Shown: positions 39,119 to 45,226 of the stretch, piece by piece | Layout of the letters: every line of letters starts with the position of its first letter | Position numbering within the stretch: position 1 is the stretch's first letter | NCBI GenBank assembly: GCA_016785955.1 | Contig: JAEUWH010000097.1 | Location: forward strand, 1-64,000 | DNA length: 64,000 nucleotides | Reading direction: 5' to 3' | Source of the DNA: Pseudobdellovibrionaceae bacterium | GTDB lineage: Bacteria > Bdellovibrionota > Bdellovibrionia > Bdellovibrionales > Bdellovibrionaceae | Position numbers and translations under genes: made by a program | The notes under the pieces: generated by a model | Told to the model about the DNA's origin: nothing | The model's input: only the letters and a program-made list of their open reading frames with translations | Databases searched by the model: none

Positions 39119-42100
39119 TCAGTTCTTGGCCTCGGAACTCTGATCAATTTGACCTTCTGAATCACCATGCTTCGTCAAATAAAACTTTTCAAGCTCCCCG
39201 CGGAAATATTTTCGCTCGAATTTTCGGTACGATTCATACTTCACTTGCGAGCCCAGAATTTCTACTAATTTAGCCTCCGTTTCCGATTCGGCATCTTTCA
39301 ATTTTTGAATTCCCTGCTCCAACAAATCTGTTCGTACATTTTCTTTCTTTTCCATCAACGATTTAACCAGCGTCTTGGACATTGCCACGACTTGAATCGA
39401 TTTTTCCTCTTCGATTCTCCACGTTCTTAGCAAATACTCCATCGCCGCTTTACCAAACTTTTCATTAAACGAAGTGCTCAGGTACAACTCATAGAACTGA
39501 TCCGTATACAACACCAAGTCCACATACGAGTCTTTAACTTCAGGCTCGCGTTTAGGAATAAATTTCTTTGCGGCCAAATCTTTGATCGCCTCTTCTTTTT
39601 GTTCTGAAACCAAGGTCTGCACCGGATTTTGATTCTTAACCACTTTGAGATATGACATCTGAATCAATGCAAATGAAACAGCCCCAATCAAAAAACCCAT
39701 CGCCAACTGTTGAAACCGTTCGCGTTTTTGCTTCTTCAGCACCACATTGGTATCTTTCGTTAACTGATTCGACTCTTCACTTGCCCCCAGAGCAATATGC
39801 GCCGTTTGCTCTTCCATCGTCGCTACAATTTTCTCTAACATCAAAGCCGACACGGCACTCAGCTTTTCTACGGGAATACTGCCCACCAGCGTTTTCTCGA
39901 CCTGCTGGTGAATCTCCTTAGCCAAACGCTCTTTAGTTTTATGCAATTCCGACAACAAATCCTCTTTAGTCTTCTTCAACTTCTCCAGCTCAATAAGCTT
40001 CATTTGATTCACTTGCTCGTTTGTTTCCTTCATCATCTGTTGCTTTTCTATCTCTAGTTGAGATTTTAACTTTGCCTTCTGACCTTCAAATTCTTTCTTT
40101 AAGCTCTCCAAACGATTATCATGAGTATCAATTTCAAATTTCATTTCGCCAACACGTTTTTCATAAGCTTTCGATTCGCTCAACAAAGAGTCTCGGCCTT
40201 GTGTCAATAATGACACCTCTTTTTTCAAGTCCGACATTTGCGTCGTATTTTTTTGCACCTCAGTTTTAATATTTTCATGCTCCACACGTAGCACCTGATG
40301 ATCCGACTCTAGTTTACCAAATACCGATTTCAATTCACCAATACGTGTTTCCAACAAAGCATTCTCATCGACAAGAGCCCTATTTTTATTTAAGAATTCC
40401 TCCTGCTTTTCACGTCGCCACACTTCGATATCTTTTTCTTTGTTAACTTCCGCCGCCGCCAGTTGGCTTTCACGCTGACTCCAATCGGCCTCACGTTTAA
40501 CCTGCTCCCCTTCATACCACCTTTGCAATTCCACGCGTTTTTGCGACTCTAAATTTCTAAGCTGCACTTCACGATCATTCCAGTCTTTCTCATTTTTAGC
40601 CCGCATGTCGGCTTCCCAAGCTGATGCCTTCGCCCGCAGCTCGACATCCCATTCTGTCGTTTTAGCTCGAGTTTCCGAATCCCAAGTCGTCGTTTTAGCT
40701 CGCAGTTCCGACTCCCACGCCAAAGTCCGCTCTTTTGTAACACGCTCAAAAACGGCTAACTCATCAGCCTTCTCTTTCTCTTGTTTACGCAAAACCTGTT
40801 CACGTTCATTCCAGTCTTTTTCATTTTTTGTTCGCGTCTCGGCAACCCAATCCAAAGTATCTTTTTTTATTTTTGATTCATAGTCTGCCAGATTCTTTTC
40901 ACGCTCATCCAGCTCTTTCAATTTCGCTTCTCGATCCTTTTGAAGTTTTTGAAAAAATTCGTCTTCTTTTTTCTTCAAACCACCGTGAAATTCTTGAAGT
41001 TCCTTCGTCTTACGCTCTTCTTCTACTTCCAAATCCATATAACGAGCTGAAATATCTTTTTCTGCTAACTCCTGACGTTTCCGCAGGCGCTCTTCAAAAT
41101 CACCACTTTTTTCAACAAGGTGCTTTTCAAGATTGGCTTCTTTTTGCTTTATCTCGTCTTCAAATATTTTACGTTTTTCAATTTCTTCTTTTTCATATTT
41201 CAACGCTACTAATTTTTTTTCTTCTTCAAGATCTTTTAATTCGTCCGCGCAGCGCTTAACATCCAGATTCAGTTGCGAGACTTCTTTTTTAAGCCGCTCG
41301 ATATCCTGCGACGATTCCTTTTTAACTTGATCGACCTCGCTCTTCGCGACTAAAACCATTTTTTCGCGCTCGACCTTACTATTCTCTTCCGCTTCTCTTA
41401 ACAACGCTTGAACCTTCTTTTGTGCTTCACGATCAGTTCGTTGCAATAAAAGTTCTTTTTCTTTTTCGGCATCGTTAAGAATTGCCTTCTTAAGGTCCTC
41501 AATTTCCAACAATGATTTATTCTTAAATTGTTCTAGCTCGCGATGAGCATACTCGCGCATTACGGTGACTTTTTCTCGCGCTTCTTCTACCATTTTATTA
41601 GAAAGAGTTTCATTTTCTTTTAAAACGCGCTCACCGTCAGACTGCGCCTCTTCAATTTTATTTTTGTAATAGTCATCGGCTTCCTTTTTATAGCCGTTGG
41701 CCTTTTCGTATATTTCTTGAACTTTCTTTTGTGCGTCTTCCTGAGCCTCATTGATAACACCAACACCCTTGCGTTTAGCATCTTGAACAATCTGGTTAGA
41801 TTGCATGGAGGCATTTTGTAAAATTTCGTCTTGCTTCAACAACGTCGCGTTTTCTATCGATGTGGATTTATTCTCGGCAATCTTGATTAACTTATCATGA
41901 CTATCCTGCGCTAACTTCACAATTTTTTGAGCTTCCGCATGAGCCCCTTGAATCAAACGTAATAAACCATCACGCTCATCCTTGGGTAACTGACTTTTAA
42001 CTACATCTTCTTTTTTAAAACATTTTTCTAGTAAATTAAAAGAAAGGTAAATCTCGGACTTACCTACTTTTACTTTATCTCCGGGCTCGACACTGACCGT

Positions 42101-42343
42101 TTTCTGTGCGGGAATCTTTTGACCATTTACAAACGTCCCATTCGCCGACCCCTGATCTTCAATCCATATTCGATCATGCTTCAACGTGATAATAAGATGA
42201 ATGCGACTGATGTCGGGATCACTAAAAGCAATCGTAGCATCTAAAGATCGACCGACCGTAAATGAACTATCGTCGACTATTTTATAGTCGACGTCTTCAC
42301 CTTGCTGGATTGTCACAATAAAAACTTGTATACTTTTAGCCAT
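39119..42343 (-). CDS. FHA-domain protein with very long cytoplasmic coiled coil and one membrane span
   Basis: 1074 residues. Residues about 5-100 form a forkhead-associated domain with the phosphothreonine-reading motifs FTVGRSLDATIAF, DISRIHL and SANGTFVNG. Residues about 110-840 are almost pure charged coiled coil, roughly 105 nm if fully extended (0.1485 nm per residue). At 542-585 come four 11-residue repeats (AWESELRAKTT type). A hydrophobic span at about 882-902 (MGFLIGAVSFALIQMSYLKVV) is followed by a helical C-terminal domain of about 170 residues, likely periplasmic. It is the last gene of a three-gene leftward operon with a MotA-like channel and a MotB/OmpA-like protein. No kinase is adjacent. 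Role inferred: phospho-responsive tail or transmitter of this machine. Confidence 0.85.
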   Translation of the reverse strand: MAKSIQVFIVTIQQGEDVDYKIVDDSSFTVGRSLDATIAFSDPDISRIHLIITLKHDRIWIEDQGSANGTFVNGQKIPAQKTVSVEPGDKVKVGKSEIYLSFNLLEKCFKKEDVVKSQLPKDERDGLLRLIQGAHAEAQKIVKLAQDSHDKLIKIAENKSTSIENATLLKQDEILQNASMQSNQIVQDAKRKGVGVINEAQEDAQKKVQEIYEKANGYKKEADDYYKNKIEEAQSDGERVLKENETLSNKMVEEAREKVTVMREYAHRELEQFKNKSLLEIEDLKKAILNDAEKEKELLLQRTDREAQKKVQALLREAEENSKVEREKMVLVAKSEVDQVKKESSQDIERLKKEVSQLNLDVKRCADELKDLEEEKKLVALKYEKEEIEKRKIFEDEIKQKEANLEKHLVEKSGDFEERLRKRQELAEKDISARYMDLEVEEERKTKELQEFHGGLKKKEDEFFQKLQKDREAKLKELDEREKNLADYESKIKKDTLDWVAETRTKNEKDWNEREQVLRKQEKEKADELAVFERVTKERTLAWESELRAKTTTWDSETRAKTTEWDVELRAKASAWEADMRAKNEKDWNDREVQLRNLESQKRVELQRWYEGEQVKREADWSQRESQLAAAEVNKEKDIEVWRREKQEEFLNKNRALVDENALLETRIGELKSVFGKLESDHQVLRVEHENIKTEVQKNTTQMSDLKKEVSLLTQGRDSLLSESKAYEKRVGEMKFEIDTHDNRLESLKKEFEGQKAKLKSQLEIEKQQMMKETNEQVNQMKLIELEKLKKTKEDLLSELHKTKERLAKEIHQQVEKTLVGSIPVEKLSAVSALMLEKIVATMEEQTAHIALGASEESNQLTKDTNVVLKKQKRERFQQLAMGFLIGAVSFALIQMSYLKVVKNQNPVQTLVSEQKEEAIKDLAAKKFIPKREPEVKDSYVDLVLYTDQFYELYLSTSFNEKFGKAAMEYLLRTWRIEEEKSIQVVAMSKTLVKSLMEKKENVRTDLLEQGIQKLKDAESETEAKLVEILGSQVKYESYRKFERKYFRGELEKFYLTKHGDSEGQIDQSSEAKN
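40589..40720 (-). repeat. Four 33-bp (11-residue) repeats in the FHA protein
   Basis: Consecutive units translate to AWESELRAKTT, TWDSETRAKTT, EWDVELRAKAS and AWEADMRAKNE. The 11-residue (hendecad) period differs from the heptads elsewhere and would favour a nearly straight or right-handed coil with a row of Trp every third turn. Confidence 0.85.
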
Positions 42344-42435
42344 CTTTTATCCTAATTCGATTACTTTAAAGCCGCCCACTTGGCATCAAAACTGGCAAAG
42401 CCTACGGCCTTAAAATACTCGGCGCTTGCGTACAT

Positions 42436-43383
42436 TTAAGAAGCTTTTGTTTTCTTCAACTCGTCTGTCTTTACCAACTCATCTAAATCACGTACACGAG
42501 CTGCCTTGGCGATTTCCAAATTAATAGACTCTTCCGCCAACGCATCTTGTGGATCCTTGTGTTCATCAAATAATTTTTCATTTGATGGATAATCATTGTT
42601 ATCACTGCGATACCATAACAAATCTAGCGATGTTTCAAAACGATCCACCATAGAGACAAATACACGATCCGGAGAAAATATCGTATTGATAAAATTCAAT
42701 AGTAACGAAAAAGCGATACCAAAAATCGATGACTTCATCGCAAACGAGATCTCAAACAAGAAACGATCCATGACGTCTTTGGTTCCCGCCGCATCTTGCA
42801 AATTCATCAACCCCAACTCGGGAAGGCCTTTCGCAATACCGATAAATGTTCCCAAGATACCCGCCACAACAAACAAACCCGGCAAAATTGAAACGATATC
42901 ATTCAGTCCCGAGATCGGAAAAACCCCAAACACTCGGTTAAAACACGGATTATGATGAAACGTTGCGCGCGTAATATGCAACAACTTGGGTGTATCATTG
43001 GTCCATTTTAGAAATTTCAGTTGCTTCAAAATGTCTTTCACCAACCAAGCACAACCTTGCTTTACCAACCAAATACGATCACTCCAACGCATCACCTTGT
43101 CACGCTGACGACGCATCATGCGATCGCGAACCTCAAACGTTTCATAGTATGTTCTTTCTAAGATTTTTTTAGACAGAACATAGAACGACACTTTGTTTGT
43201 TGTTCCCGGTTGCTGACTTTCCATAAAGTGAGACACACGTTTTTCAAACTCACGTGAAAACCATTCGTGACGTTTGACCGTGTACCAAATCATGAATCGA
43301 AGGAAGGCGCCAACAACAAAGACGACTCCCATCACCCAAGGCAGACTGAGTATAAAATATTCAGTTAAAGTTTTTGTTCCCAT
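42436..43383 (-). CDS. MotA/TolQ/ExbB-type proton channel protein
   Basis: 315 residues from the ATG preceded by AAGGAG seven bases upstream (a second ATG lies two codons earlier). There are three predicted spans: about 12-33, 178-200 (LPGLFVVAGILGTFIGIAKGL) and 220-245 (SSIFGIAFSLLLNFINTIF). A cytoplasmic segment of about 140 residues lies between the first and second. The LGTFIGIAKGL and FAMKSSIFGIAFS sequences are hallmarks of the MotA/TolQ/ExbB/ZorA superfamily, which uses the proton motive force to drive a MotB/TolR/ExbD/ZorB partner. The partner is the gene directly upstream (17-base gap). It is not flagellar MotA, which has four spans. Confidence 0.87.
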   Translation of the reverse strand: MGTKTLTEYFILSLPWVMGVVFVVGAFLRFMIWYTVKRHEWFSREFEKRVSHFMESQQPGTTNKVSFYVLSKKILERTYYETFEVRDRMMRRQRDKVMRWSDRIWLVKQGCAWLVKDILKQLKFLKWTNDTPKLLHITRATFHHNPCFNRVFGVFPISGLNDIVSILPGLFVVAGILGTFIGIAKGLPELGLMNLQDAAGTKDVMDRFLFEISFAMKSSIFGIAFSLLLNFINTIFSPDRVFVSMVDRFETSLDLLWYRSDNNDYPSNEKLFDEHKDPQDALAEESINLEIAKAARVRDLDELVKTDELKKTKAS

Positions 43384-43399
43384 GTCCATTCTCCTTTAA

Positions 43400-45049
43400 T
43401 TATTTCTTTCCATCCATACTGAAGCGAATAACCACCCGTTGCGACTTCTTACAGTCATTGGCTTTGCAGAAATCAGTGCCCGGCTTAACGTCCTTCACTT
43501 TCATCACTTCCAAAAAGCTTCGCCCAGAGACTTTCATAACCGGGTACATATCTTTTTGATGGTCAAACTCCATCGTCTTATCATCCAAAATATGACTAAA
43601 AATCGACTTCGCCCGTTTGTAACTTAAATCCATATTATACTTGAGCGCCTCTTTATCTTTTTTCGCGCTTGATTTAGGGTCCACAAATTTACCGCCATAA
43701 GTCGGCGACGCAAAACCCACAATCTCGACCGCCGAGATTTTGTCTTTTACTTTGTCATTACCAAATAGGGATTTCGCATAGACAGGCATCGCTTTTTCGA
43801 GAATTGATTTCATGTCTGAATTCAACTTTGCCGAGTCTGTTTCGAAGTAGGCATCACCGAAATCAAGCATCACCTCGCCTGTTTGTAAATCGATGTCCGC
43901 CTTCACACCCGCTTTTTCAAAACCTTTTTTAATTTCATTAGCTACGTCTTTCCGCAAATCCCGCTCTTCCAAAGCTTTCTTCAACTCGCGCTCTTTTTCA
44001 CCCAAGTCGCGACTCATTCCCGCCAACTTATCACCCAGCTCTTTCTCTTTGGCTTTTGCACTCGCTTCAAATTCAGCCAATTTTTTTGCTTTTTCCGCCG
44101 CACCCATTTTCGCGCCACGAAGCTCGTTTTCAAGTTTAGCCTTGTCTCTGGCTTTTTCGGCCTCGAACTGTCCCTTCATTTGATCCATCTTCTGAGCATA
44201 CTCACCATCAAGACCTTCTAACTTTGACTTCAAATCACCCACTTCATTACTTTTTGTATTCAGCTCATTTTTAGTCTTTGCTAAATCCGACGACAACTGC
44301 CCCAAACGCGTTTGCGAATGCTTTAGATCCGTTTCACTGCTGGCTATTTGCTCGTTTAATTTATCAATGCGGTTTTGATTGTCGTTTTGAAGTTGCGAGA
44401 TTTTTTGTTCGTACGCTTTTTTGGAAATTTCTTTGTTTTTAAGCGCGTCTTTCAATTCACTCATCTTGGTGTCAAGTTGCTCTTGCGCCTTAACAATTTT
44501 TTGCTCGTTATCCGCAATCAATTTCTTTTTCAAATCTACTTCTTCATTCAAAGATGCAATTTGCTCTTCTTGAGACGCAATCGTGTCGTCCTGCTCGCCG
44601 ATAATATTATCACGTCGAGTAATTTTTGTTTTCGCCAACGCGTTGGCGTTGATGATACTTTTCACCATCTGCTGATATTGATTTAAAGCGTCTTCTTTTT
44701 TCGAATTATCGTTCGCCGCCTGTCTGAGACGCTCTTTCTCATCCTTTGCTTCTTCCTTAAGCAATGTCAATTTATCCAAAAGCTCGACATAGCGATCCAT
44801 CTCGGACTGACTAGCCTCTTCTTTCATAGCCTGCTTAGCGGTTGAATTATATATCGCAATTTGATTTTCCAAATCGCGTATTTTCTGAGCTTGTTGCTCT
44901 TGATTCACGCCGGACATATTGGTTTTCAGTGAAGACGTGACGTACAAGAGTAGAAAAATCGTCGACAATCCCAAGAACAAATCCGAGTAGGAGGTCCAAA
45001 AATGGCCATCGTCTTGGTGATGTTTGTGTTTATCGTAATTGAATGACAT
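43400..45049 (-). CDS. MotB/OmpA-like protein with long periplasmic coiled coil
   Basis: 549 residues from the ATG of MSFNYDKH, which has GAGG at good spacing; the frame is open 22 codons earlier. A short His/Asp-rich cytoplasmic tail leads to a single span beginning SYSDLFLGLSTIFLLLYV, in which Asp23 corresponds to the proton-carrying Asp of MotB. Residues about 50-370 form a charged coiled coil. The C-terminal domain (about 385-549) has DFGDAYFETDSAKL, VEIVGFASPTYGG and LSYKRAKSIF, the OmpA/MotB peptidoglycan-binding pattern. It is the first gene of the operon with the MotA-like and FHA genes. The coil is much longer than that of flagellar MotB. Confidence 0.87.
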   Translation of the reverse strand: MSFNYDKHKHHQDDGHFWTSYSDLFLGLSTIFLLLYVTSSLKTNMSGVNQEQQAQKIRDLENQIAIYNSTAKQAMKEEASQSEMDRYVELLDKLTLLKEEAKDEKERLRQAANDNSKKEDALNQYQQMVKSIINANALAKTKITRRDNIIGEQDDTIASQEEQIASLNEEVDLKKKLIADNEQKIVKAQEQLDTKMSELKDALKNKEISKKAYEQKISQLQNDNQNRIDKLNEQIASSETDLKHSQTRLGQLSSDLAKTKNELNTKSNEVGDLKSKLEGLDGEYAQKMDQMKGQFEAEKARDKAKLENELRGAKMGAAEKAKKLAEFEASAKAKEKELGDKLAGMSRDLGEKERELKKALEERDLRKDVANEIKKGFEKAGVKADIDLQTGEVMLDFGDAYFETDSAKLNSDMKSILEKAMPVYAKSLFGNDKVKDKISAVEIVGFASPTYGGKFVDPKSSAKKDKEALKYNMDLSYKRAKSIFSHILDDKTMEFDHQKDMYPVMKVSGRSFLEVMKVKDVKPGTDFCKANDCKKSQRVVIRFSMDGKK

Positions 45050-45226
45050 AGAATCCTCTTCTCTTAACTTTAATTCAGAGTTTTTCTTCGATTTACTGAT
45101 CCCTTCATCGTTCATTTATGTGGATTTCTTGAGGTCCAGACAGGTGAAAGAAGTTTTTAGGTCCTAGGTCCTAAATTACCATAACTATTCCTTGATTTTG
45201 GTCTAGGTTTAAAGAATCATTTACTC

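Follow-up and report, generated by a model that had tools for sequence, protein, structure and literature searches.

What kind of machine is encoded where a channel protein, a peptidoglycan-binding partner and a very long FHA coiled-coil protein are produced from neighbouring genes? The question is raised by a stretch of 64,000 nucleotides from a Pseudobdellovibrionaceae bacterium, in the following called the window, for which a sequence-only reading had proposed that MotB/OmpA-like, channel and FHA genes form one operon. The ORF listing bears this out. Three genes follow each other on the minus strand in the order motB/zorB-like (43400-45049), motA/zorA-like (42436-43389) and FHA (39119-42343), with intergenic gaps of 10 and 92 bases; promoter and terminator scans returned chance-level signal only. 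The same order recurs in homologous loci across the order, and presence of the motA-like gene agrees with that of the motB-like gene in 138 of 141 genomes (Fisher p = 2e-35). Thus, the arrangement is not due to chance. The nearest homologues of the channel protein, 89% identical, reside on Bdellovibrionaceae or Bdellovibrio MAG contigs; the genome is that of a Bdellovibrio relative. One contig (L025) is filed under an Actinomycetota MAG (ACE_ACT2); its channel match has the same identity and score as that of the Bdellovibrionaceae MAG ACE_BDE1, and the assignment is probably a binning error. Our preferred answer, to which we assign a probability of about 0.6, is a ZorAB-type ion-driven motor with a separately encoded, interchangeable signal-sensing subunit.

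The channel protein of 317 residues had been regarded as a three-span MotA/TolQ/ExbB-like protein. Its three spans and a polar pore ring were recovered, whereas its family turned out to be ZorA. In the HMM searches that the earlier reading had suggested, ZorA models matched all 28 channel homologues, albeit below the curated cut-offs (46.6 versus 100 bits for the window protein P0002), and the protein hit ZorA in NCBIfam (2.4e-12) and in the PDB (8VVN, 2.8e-5). In contrast, Pfam MotA_ExbB (PF01618) reached E = 0.12 and 12.5 bits on P0002 (cut-off 22.9), missed the gene in a whole-genome scan and detected two of the 28 homologues at E ≤ 0.001. Among motor proteins, a PDB profile search returned only ZorA chains for the channel and only ZorB chains for its partner. 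Structure predictions were based on shallow alignments of eight rows (the window and loci L021-L029), and the AlphaFold model of the channel is modest (mean pLDDT 65). Its best Foldseek matches were ZorA, TolQ and ExbB, none with E < 0.001, headed by ZorA 8QYK (probability 0.99, E = 0.02). Judged by its profiles, the channel is ZorA-like rather than MotA-, Tol- or Exb-like. The expectation that the pair would not fall into an assigned Tol/Exb or flagellar system held, its closest named relatives being ZorA and ZorB.

The pore-lining region (42727-42849) extends from Thr181 in a GTF motif to Ser221. Both residues, like Asp45 of the partner, are invariant in the alignment of 28 homologues, and both are also kept in the sister clade with a different third gene that is described below. 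As the earlier reading had presupposed, the channel retains its conserved pore residues. Work on ZorAB has shown the Asp of the span and the polar Ser/Thr ring to be important for both structure and function (PMC11890865). The channel ends only about 80 residues after its third span. The C-terminal cytoplasmic tail (42439-42594; DEHxDPxEALAEE...KAS) is a candidate docking site for the FHA protein, as it is present in all 56 FHA loci compared with two of 22 others. Yet this association is confined to one clade and thus reflects one evolutionary event on the tree, so that we set docking aside as a suggestion only. An unrelated feature of the same tail is that the last two residues of the channel are small (AS, AA, GA, VS and alike; 42439-42450 in the window) in 61 of 69 homologous rows, some of them fragments or near-duplicates, compared with 24 of 746 other ORFs. 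Such an end might act as a degron; the tmRNA tag of this genome, ADNNVAMAA, also ends in AA.

The motB/zorB-like protein comprises 549 residues from a conserved start, MSFNY, or 571 residues if the ORF is extended to the ATG at 45115. Because homologues share the MSFNY start, we favour initiation at 45049 (Met23), in agreement with the earlier reading. A single transmembrane helix (44924-44983) carries the invariant ion-path residue Asp45, counted from 45115, and aligns with the FWxSYxDL segment of ZorB. It is followed by a periplasmic coiled coil of about 326 residues (43931-44908; heptad z = 8.6, no proline) and a ZorB/OmpA-type peptidoglycan-binding domain with a YNxxLSxxR motif and Cys550 and Cys555 (43403-43918). 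ZorB models matched all 28 aligned homologues, the best match of the window protein being PADLOC ZorB1 (5.6e-33); OmpA reached E = 0.0048 in the HD100 orthologue. The description as a MotB/OmpA-like protein with an Asp in its span and an OmpA-type peptidoglycan domain was therefore sound. The two cysteines near the C-terminus are also invariant (28 of 28) and might form a periplasmic disulphide.

ZorB aligns with this protein only on the two sides of the coil, which appears as an insertion of about 300 residues. At a coil rise of 0.1485 nm per residue, a straight periplasmic coil would extend over about 48 nm, compared with about 110 nm for a straight cytoplasmic coil of the FHA protein. The periplasmic arm exceeds the width of a typical periplasm and has to curve, double back or run along the wall. 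An arm far longer than that of ZorB could also belong to a Tol/Exb-like energy coupler, in which the coil would pull an outer-membrane partner, and in genus g1 the divergent neighbours do resemble genes for outer-membrane-type proteins. However, these neighbours are not conserved beyond close relatives, the arm is capped by a peptidoglycan domain rather than a TolA/TonB-type end, and 26 of the 28 channel homologues lack a MotA_ExbB match at E ≤ 0.001. We therefore consider a coupler of this kind very unlikely and return to the ZorAB-type motor and its third component.

This component, the FHA protein, had been described as a 1074-residue protein with a coil of about 730 residues, in good agreement with our data. 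The FHA domain (residues 29-94; 42062-42259) matched PF00498 with E = 3.4e-17 and 63.1 bits (cut-off 20.7), and at least 90% of 21 homologues share its GR, SRxH and NGT motifs. Residues 130-870, charged and with a single proline, show heptad periodicity (z = 3.6) and form a cytoplasmic coiled coil of about 740 residues (39734-41956). Beyond it lie two features missed before: a transmembrane helix at about residues 880-899 (39647-39706) and a conserved helical periplasmic C-terminal domain (39122-39646; AlphaFold mean pLDDT 76). This helical domain, of about 150 residues, is conserved across the clade, and no PDB fold matched it at E ≤ 0.001. The basic flank on the N side of the helix places the N-terminus inside the cell in the predicted topology. 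Homologues range from 707 to 1369 residues with a cytoplasmic coil of variable length. That the tail of the motor is a separate subunit holds insofar as a separate FHA gene is conserved as third subunit. Nevertheless, the protein is not simply a detached ZorA tail, because it has its own inner-membrane anchor and periplasmic domain. In the FHA clade, the FHA domain is degenerate in two members (L079, L110) and was not detected in a third (L081), hence phosphothreonine binding is not universal. Genus g34 (G051 and G122; L136 and L137) encodes shorter FHA proteins of about 540 residues with the same C-terminal domain away from the motor, perhaps paralogues.

How does this assembly compare with known machines? 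It shares with ZorA/ZorB of Zorya types I and II (PDB 8VVN, 8VVI and 8QYD) the channel and the Asp/peptidoglycan subunit by profile and fold search, the conserved Thr/Ser and Asp residues and the YNxxLSxxR motif. In contrast to Zorya, the ZorA homologue has no long C-terminal tail, the long coil being part of a separate protein, the ZorB homologue contains an extra coil of about 300 residues, and the third gene encodes an FHA-coil-membrane or cNMP-binding protein instead of ZorC/D/E. In the operon the FHA or cNMP gene comes last, with no Zorya effector gene behind it (neighbours were identified in part of the other loci). The ZorA tail and the effector genes being missing, we agree that this is not classical Zorya and regard the operon as a variant of ZorAB-type motors rather than a member of the Zorya defence systems. 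With the flagellar stator MotA/MotB it has in common a probable 5:2 ion-driven plan, the span Asp and an OmpA-like domain, but it differs by its long periplasmic arm, its signal-domain subunit and a MotA_ExbB score under the cut-off. No flagellar genes were found among the ORFs examined beside the operon (35.5-47.4 kb of the window), in line with the earlier view that the system is not flagellar. TolQ/TolR and ExbB/ExbD resemble it in three-span topology and helix-rich fold, whereas here the operon has no TolA/TonB partner and the second subunit carries a peptidoglycan-binding domain. Domains of tolA, tolB or pal were not detected in the window neighbours P0004-P0008, as had been stated for Tol. 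FHA domains also occur in Bdellovibrio predator signalling, in the predation regulators DgcB and Bd0473/Bd0474; they share this domain but have not been described as coupled to a motor operon. Our literature search, covering open-access papers to the exclusion of subscription papers and supplements, found none that describes the operon as a motor.

Retention and loss of the three genes go hand in hand in the order. Tabulating co-occurrence, as had been advised, in 141 genomes and counting the FHA gene by its C-terminal domain, we found the channel in 85, the partner in 86 and the FHA-protein domain in 82 genomes; the homologues do co-occur. The three exceptions to the agreement of channel and partner are short matches, some at contig ends. 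The FHA-protein domain is present in 81 of 87 genomes with either motor gene, and five of the remaining six belong to genus g31. One genome (G075) has retained the FHA gene although about 0.9 Mb separates it from the motor genes.

Further insight comes from lineages in which the third gene differs. A deep clade of family f18 (L089-L093, L109, L112, L113) has the two-gene motor followed by a gene for a protein of 150-160 residues. In two of these proteins that were scanned, cNMP_binding was found with E = 2.1e-18 and 9.4e-15, and the other six are alike by inspection, so a cyclic-nucleotide-binding-type gene takes the position of the FHA gene in all eight loci. This cNMP clade is monophyletic with a support of 100, and FHA-bearing loci fall on one side of a branch with a support of 94 in a tree calculated without the C-terminal tail. 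The five genomes of genus g31 and several genomes of f17, f13 and f18 encode the two-gene motor with no recognised sensor. The simplest reading of these sequences is that a common motor core gained different signal subunits. The replacement of the FHA gene by a cyclic-nucleotide-binding gene in the sister clade is new here. The motB-like proteins of the cNMP clade span 559-1057 residues, and the length of their periplasmic arm thus varies greatly; seven of the eight cNMP proteins end in small residues like those described above for the channel.

Signal sensing by the third gene suggests that the motor is switched by internal signals of the cell. Four Hanks-type kinases in this genome exceed the Pfam cut-off, and class III cyclases were found in the cNMP genomes examined. 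Both signals are possible on this permissive evidence; kinase or phosphatase genes were not noticed in the operons, whose neighbours were inspected in part. Gating of the motor by phosphothreonine may be considered on the indirect support of the conserved FHA residues, the four kinases and the cyclic-nucleotide swap in the sister clade. By homology to ZorAB, five channel subunits would surround a dimer of the Asp-bearing, peptidoglycan-binding subunit. By analogy, ions passing the Asp and the Thr/Ser ring would drive rotation of the channel pentamer relative to the dimer fixed to the wall. With its anchor in the inner membrane and its long coil extending into the cytoplasm, the FHA protein would sense the phosphorylation of threonine and allow, stop or localise the motor. 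It may report the phosphorylation state to the motor or else recruit phosphorylated clients. In the sister clade, the small cyclic-nucleotide-binding protein would act in its place.

When might such a motor be active? In B. bacteriovorus HD100, where SMC is Bd1158 (PMC11318664), the gene count from SMC suggests that the operon corresponds to about Bd1165, Bd1166 and Bd1167. The only inferred tag covered in the literature, by one relevant open paper, was Bd1167, an attack-phase gene that is turned off after prey contact and was described as crescentin-like. Gene order and this description indicate that Bd1167 is probably the HD100 FHA gene; a tag error of one or two genes would probably still leave Bd1167 in this operon. 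The crescentin-like description, together with the great length of the coils on either side of the membrane, would suit a static wall-to-cytoskeleton anchor, a scaffold built on a non-conducting channel homologue that shapes the attack-phase cell. Yet Asp45, Thr181 and Ser221 of the ion path are invariant in the 28 homologues, and the two in the channel are also kept in the cNMP clade, although a non-conducting channel would have no need of them. These findings argue against a static anchor, which we regard as improbable. The attack-phase expression also bears on anti-phage defence, namely a relative of Zorya with the FHA coiled-coil or cNMP protein in place of ZorC/D/E and of the ZorA tail. 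Such a function would be consistent with ZorA and ZorB as closest named relatives and with patchy loss of the operon within genera. However, expression of the probable HD100 FHA gene follows the predation cycle, the operon contains no nuclease or helicase and Pfam detected none in the scanned window neighbours (P0004-P0008). Moreover, the operon is usually single-copy, its distribution clusters broadly by lineage over many genera and its flanking genes are kept inside genus g1. Defence therefore appears unlikely.

A ZorAB-type motor with a sensing subunit would, in Bdellovibrio, probably be made in free-swimming attack-phase cells, where it would exert or sense force at the envelope. More tentatively, the operon may represent an undescribed class of ZorAB-type motors with a built-in interchangeable receptor, by which phosphorylation or cyclic nucleotides directly switch envelope force during the predator life cycle. 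ZorAB is known as a defence motor. A nuclease-free ZorAB-like pair co-inherited with signal-binding subunits in the model predator HD100 offers a genetically tractable non-defence candidate. It would make testable both the role of such motors outside immunity and the gating of a 5:2 motor by phosphorylation or cyclic nucleotides.

With strain names assigned by inference, B. bacteriovorus HD100, Tiberius and SSB218315, kdesi and the strains KM01, NC01, SKB1291214, ZAP7 and W carry the operon, and among the 141 genomes those of B. reynosensis LBG001, P. exovorus JSS and Ca. B. qaytius lack it. In HD100 it occupies positions 1107724-1112616. A strict link to intraperiplasmic invasion was considered, as the epibiotic JSS and qaytius lack the genes, but it was rejected: four members of the exovorus genus group have them and the intraperiplasmic LBG001 lacks all three. 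The proposed invasion role is weakened accordingly. Since several other genomes also lack all three genes, the operon has no essential role in predation.

Some observations on neighbouring genes may be added. Divergent from the operon in the window, P0004 (45227-46390) combines a signal-like N-terminus with a CxxCH haem-type motif and a barrel-like body and has no Pfam match; outside the genus and its near relatives it is not conserved next to the operon. P0005 (46400-47404), which adjoins P0004 in relatives, is proline-rich with a barrel-like C-terminus. In genus g31, from which the FHA gene is missing, an ankyrin-repeat gene is located divergently upstream of the motor (L044, 2682-4271, and L045). 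Two loci of one genus with a two-gene motor (L086, L118) have a flagellin-like gene 0.5-0.6 kb downstream on the same strand.
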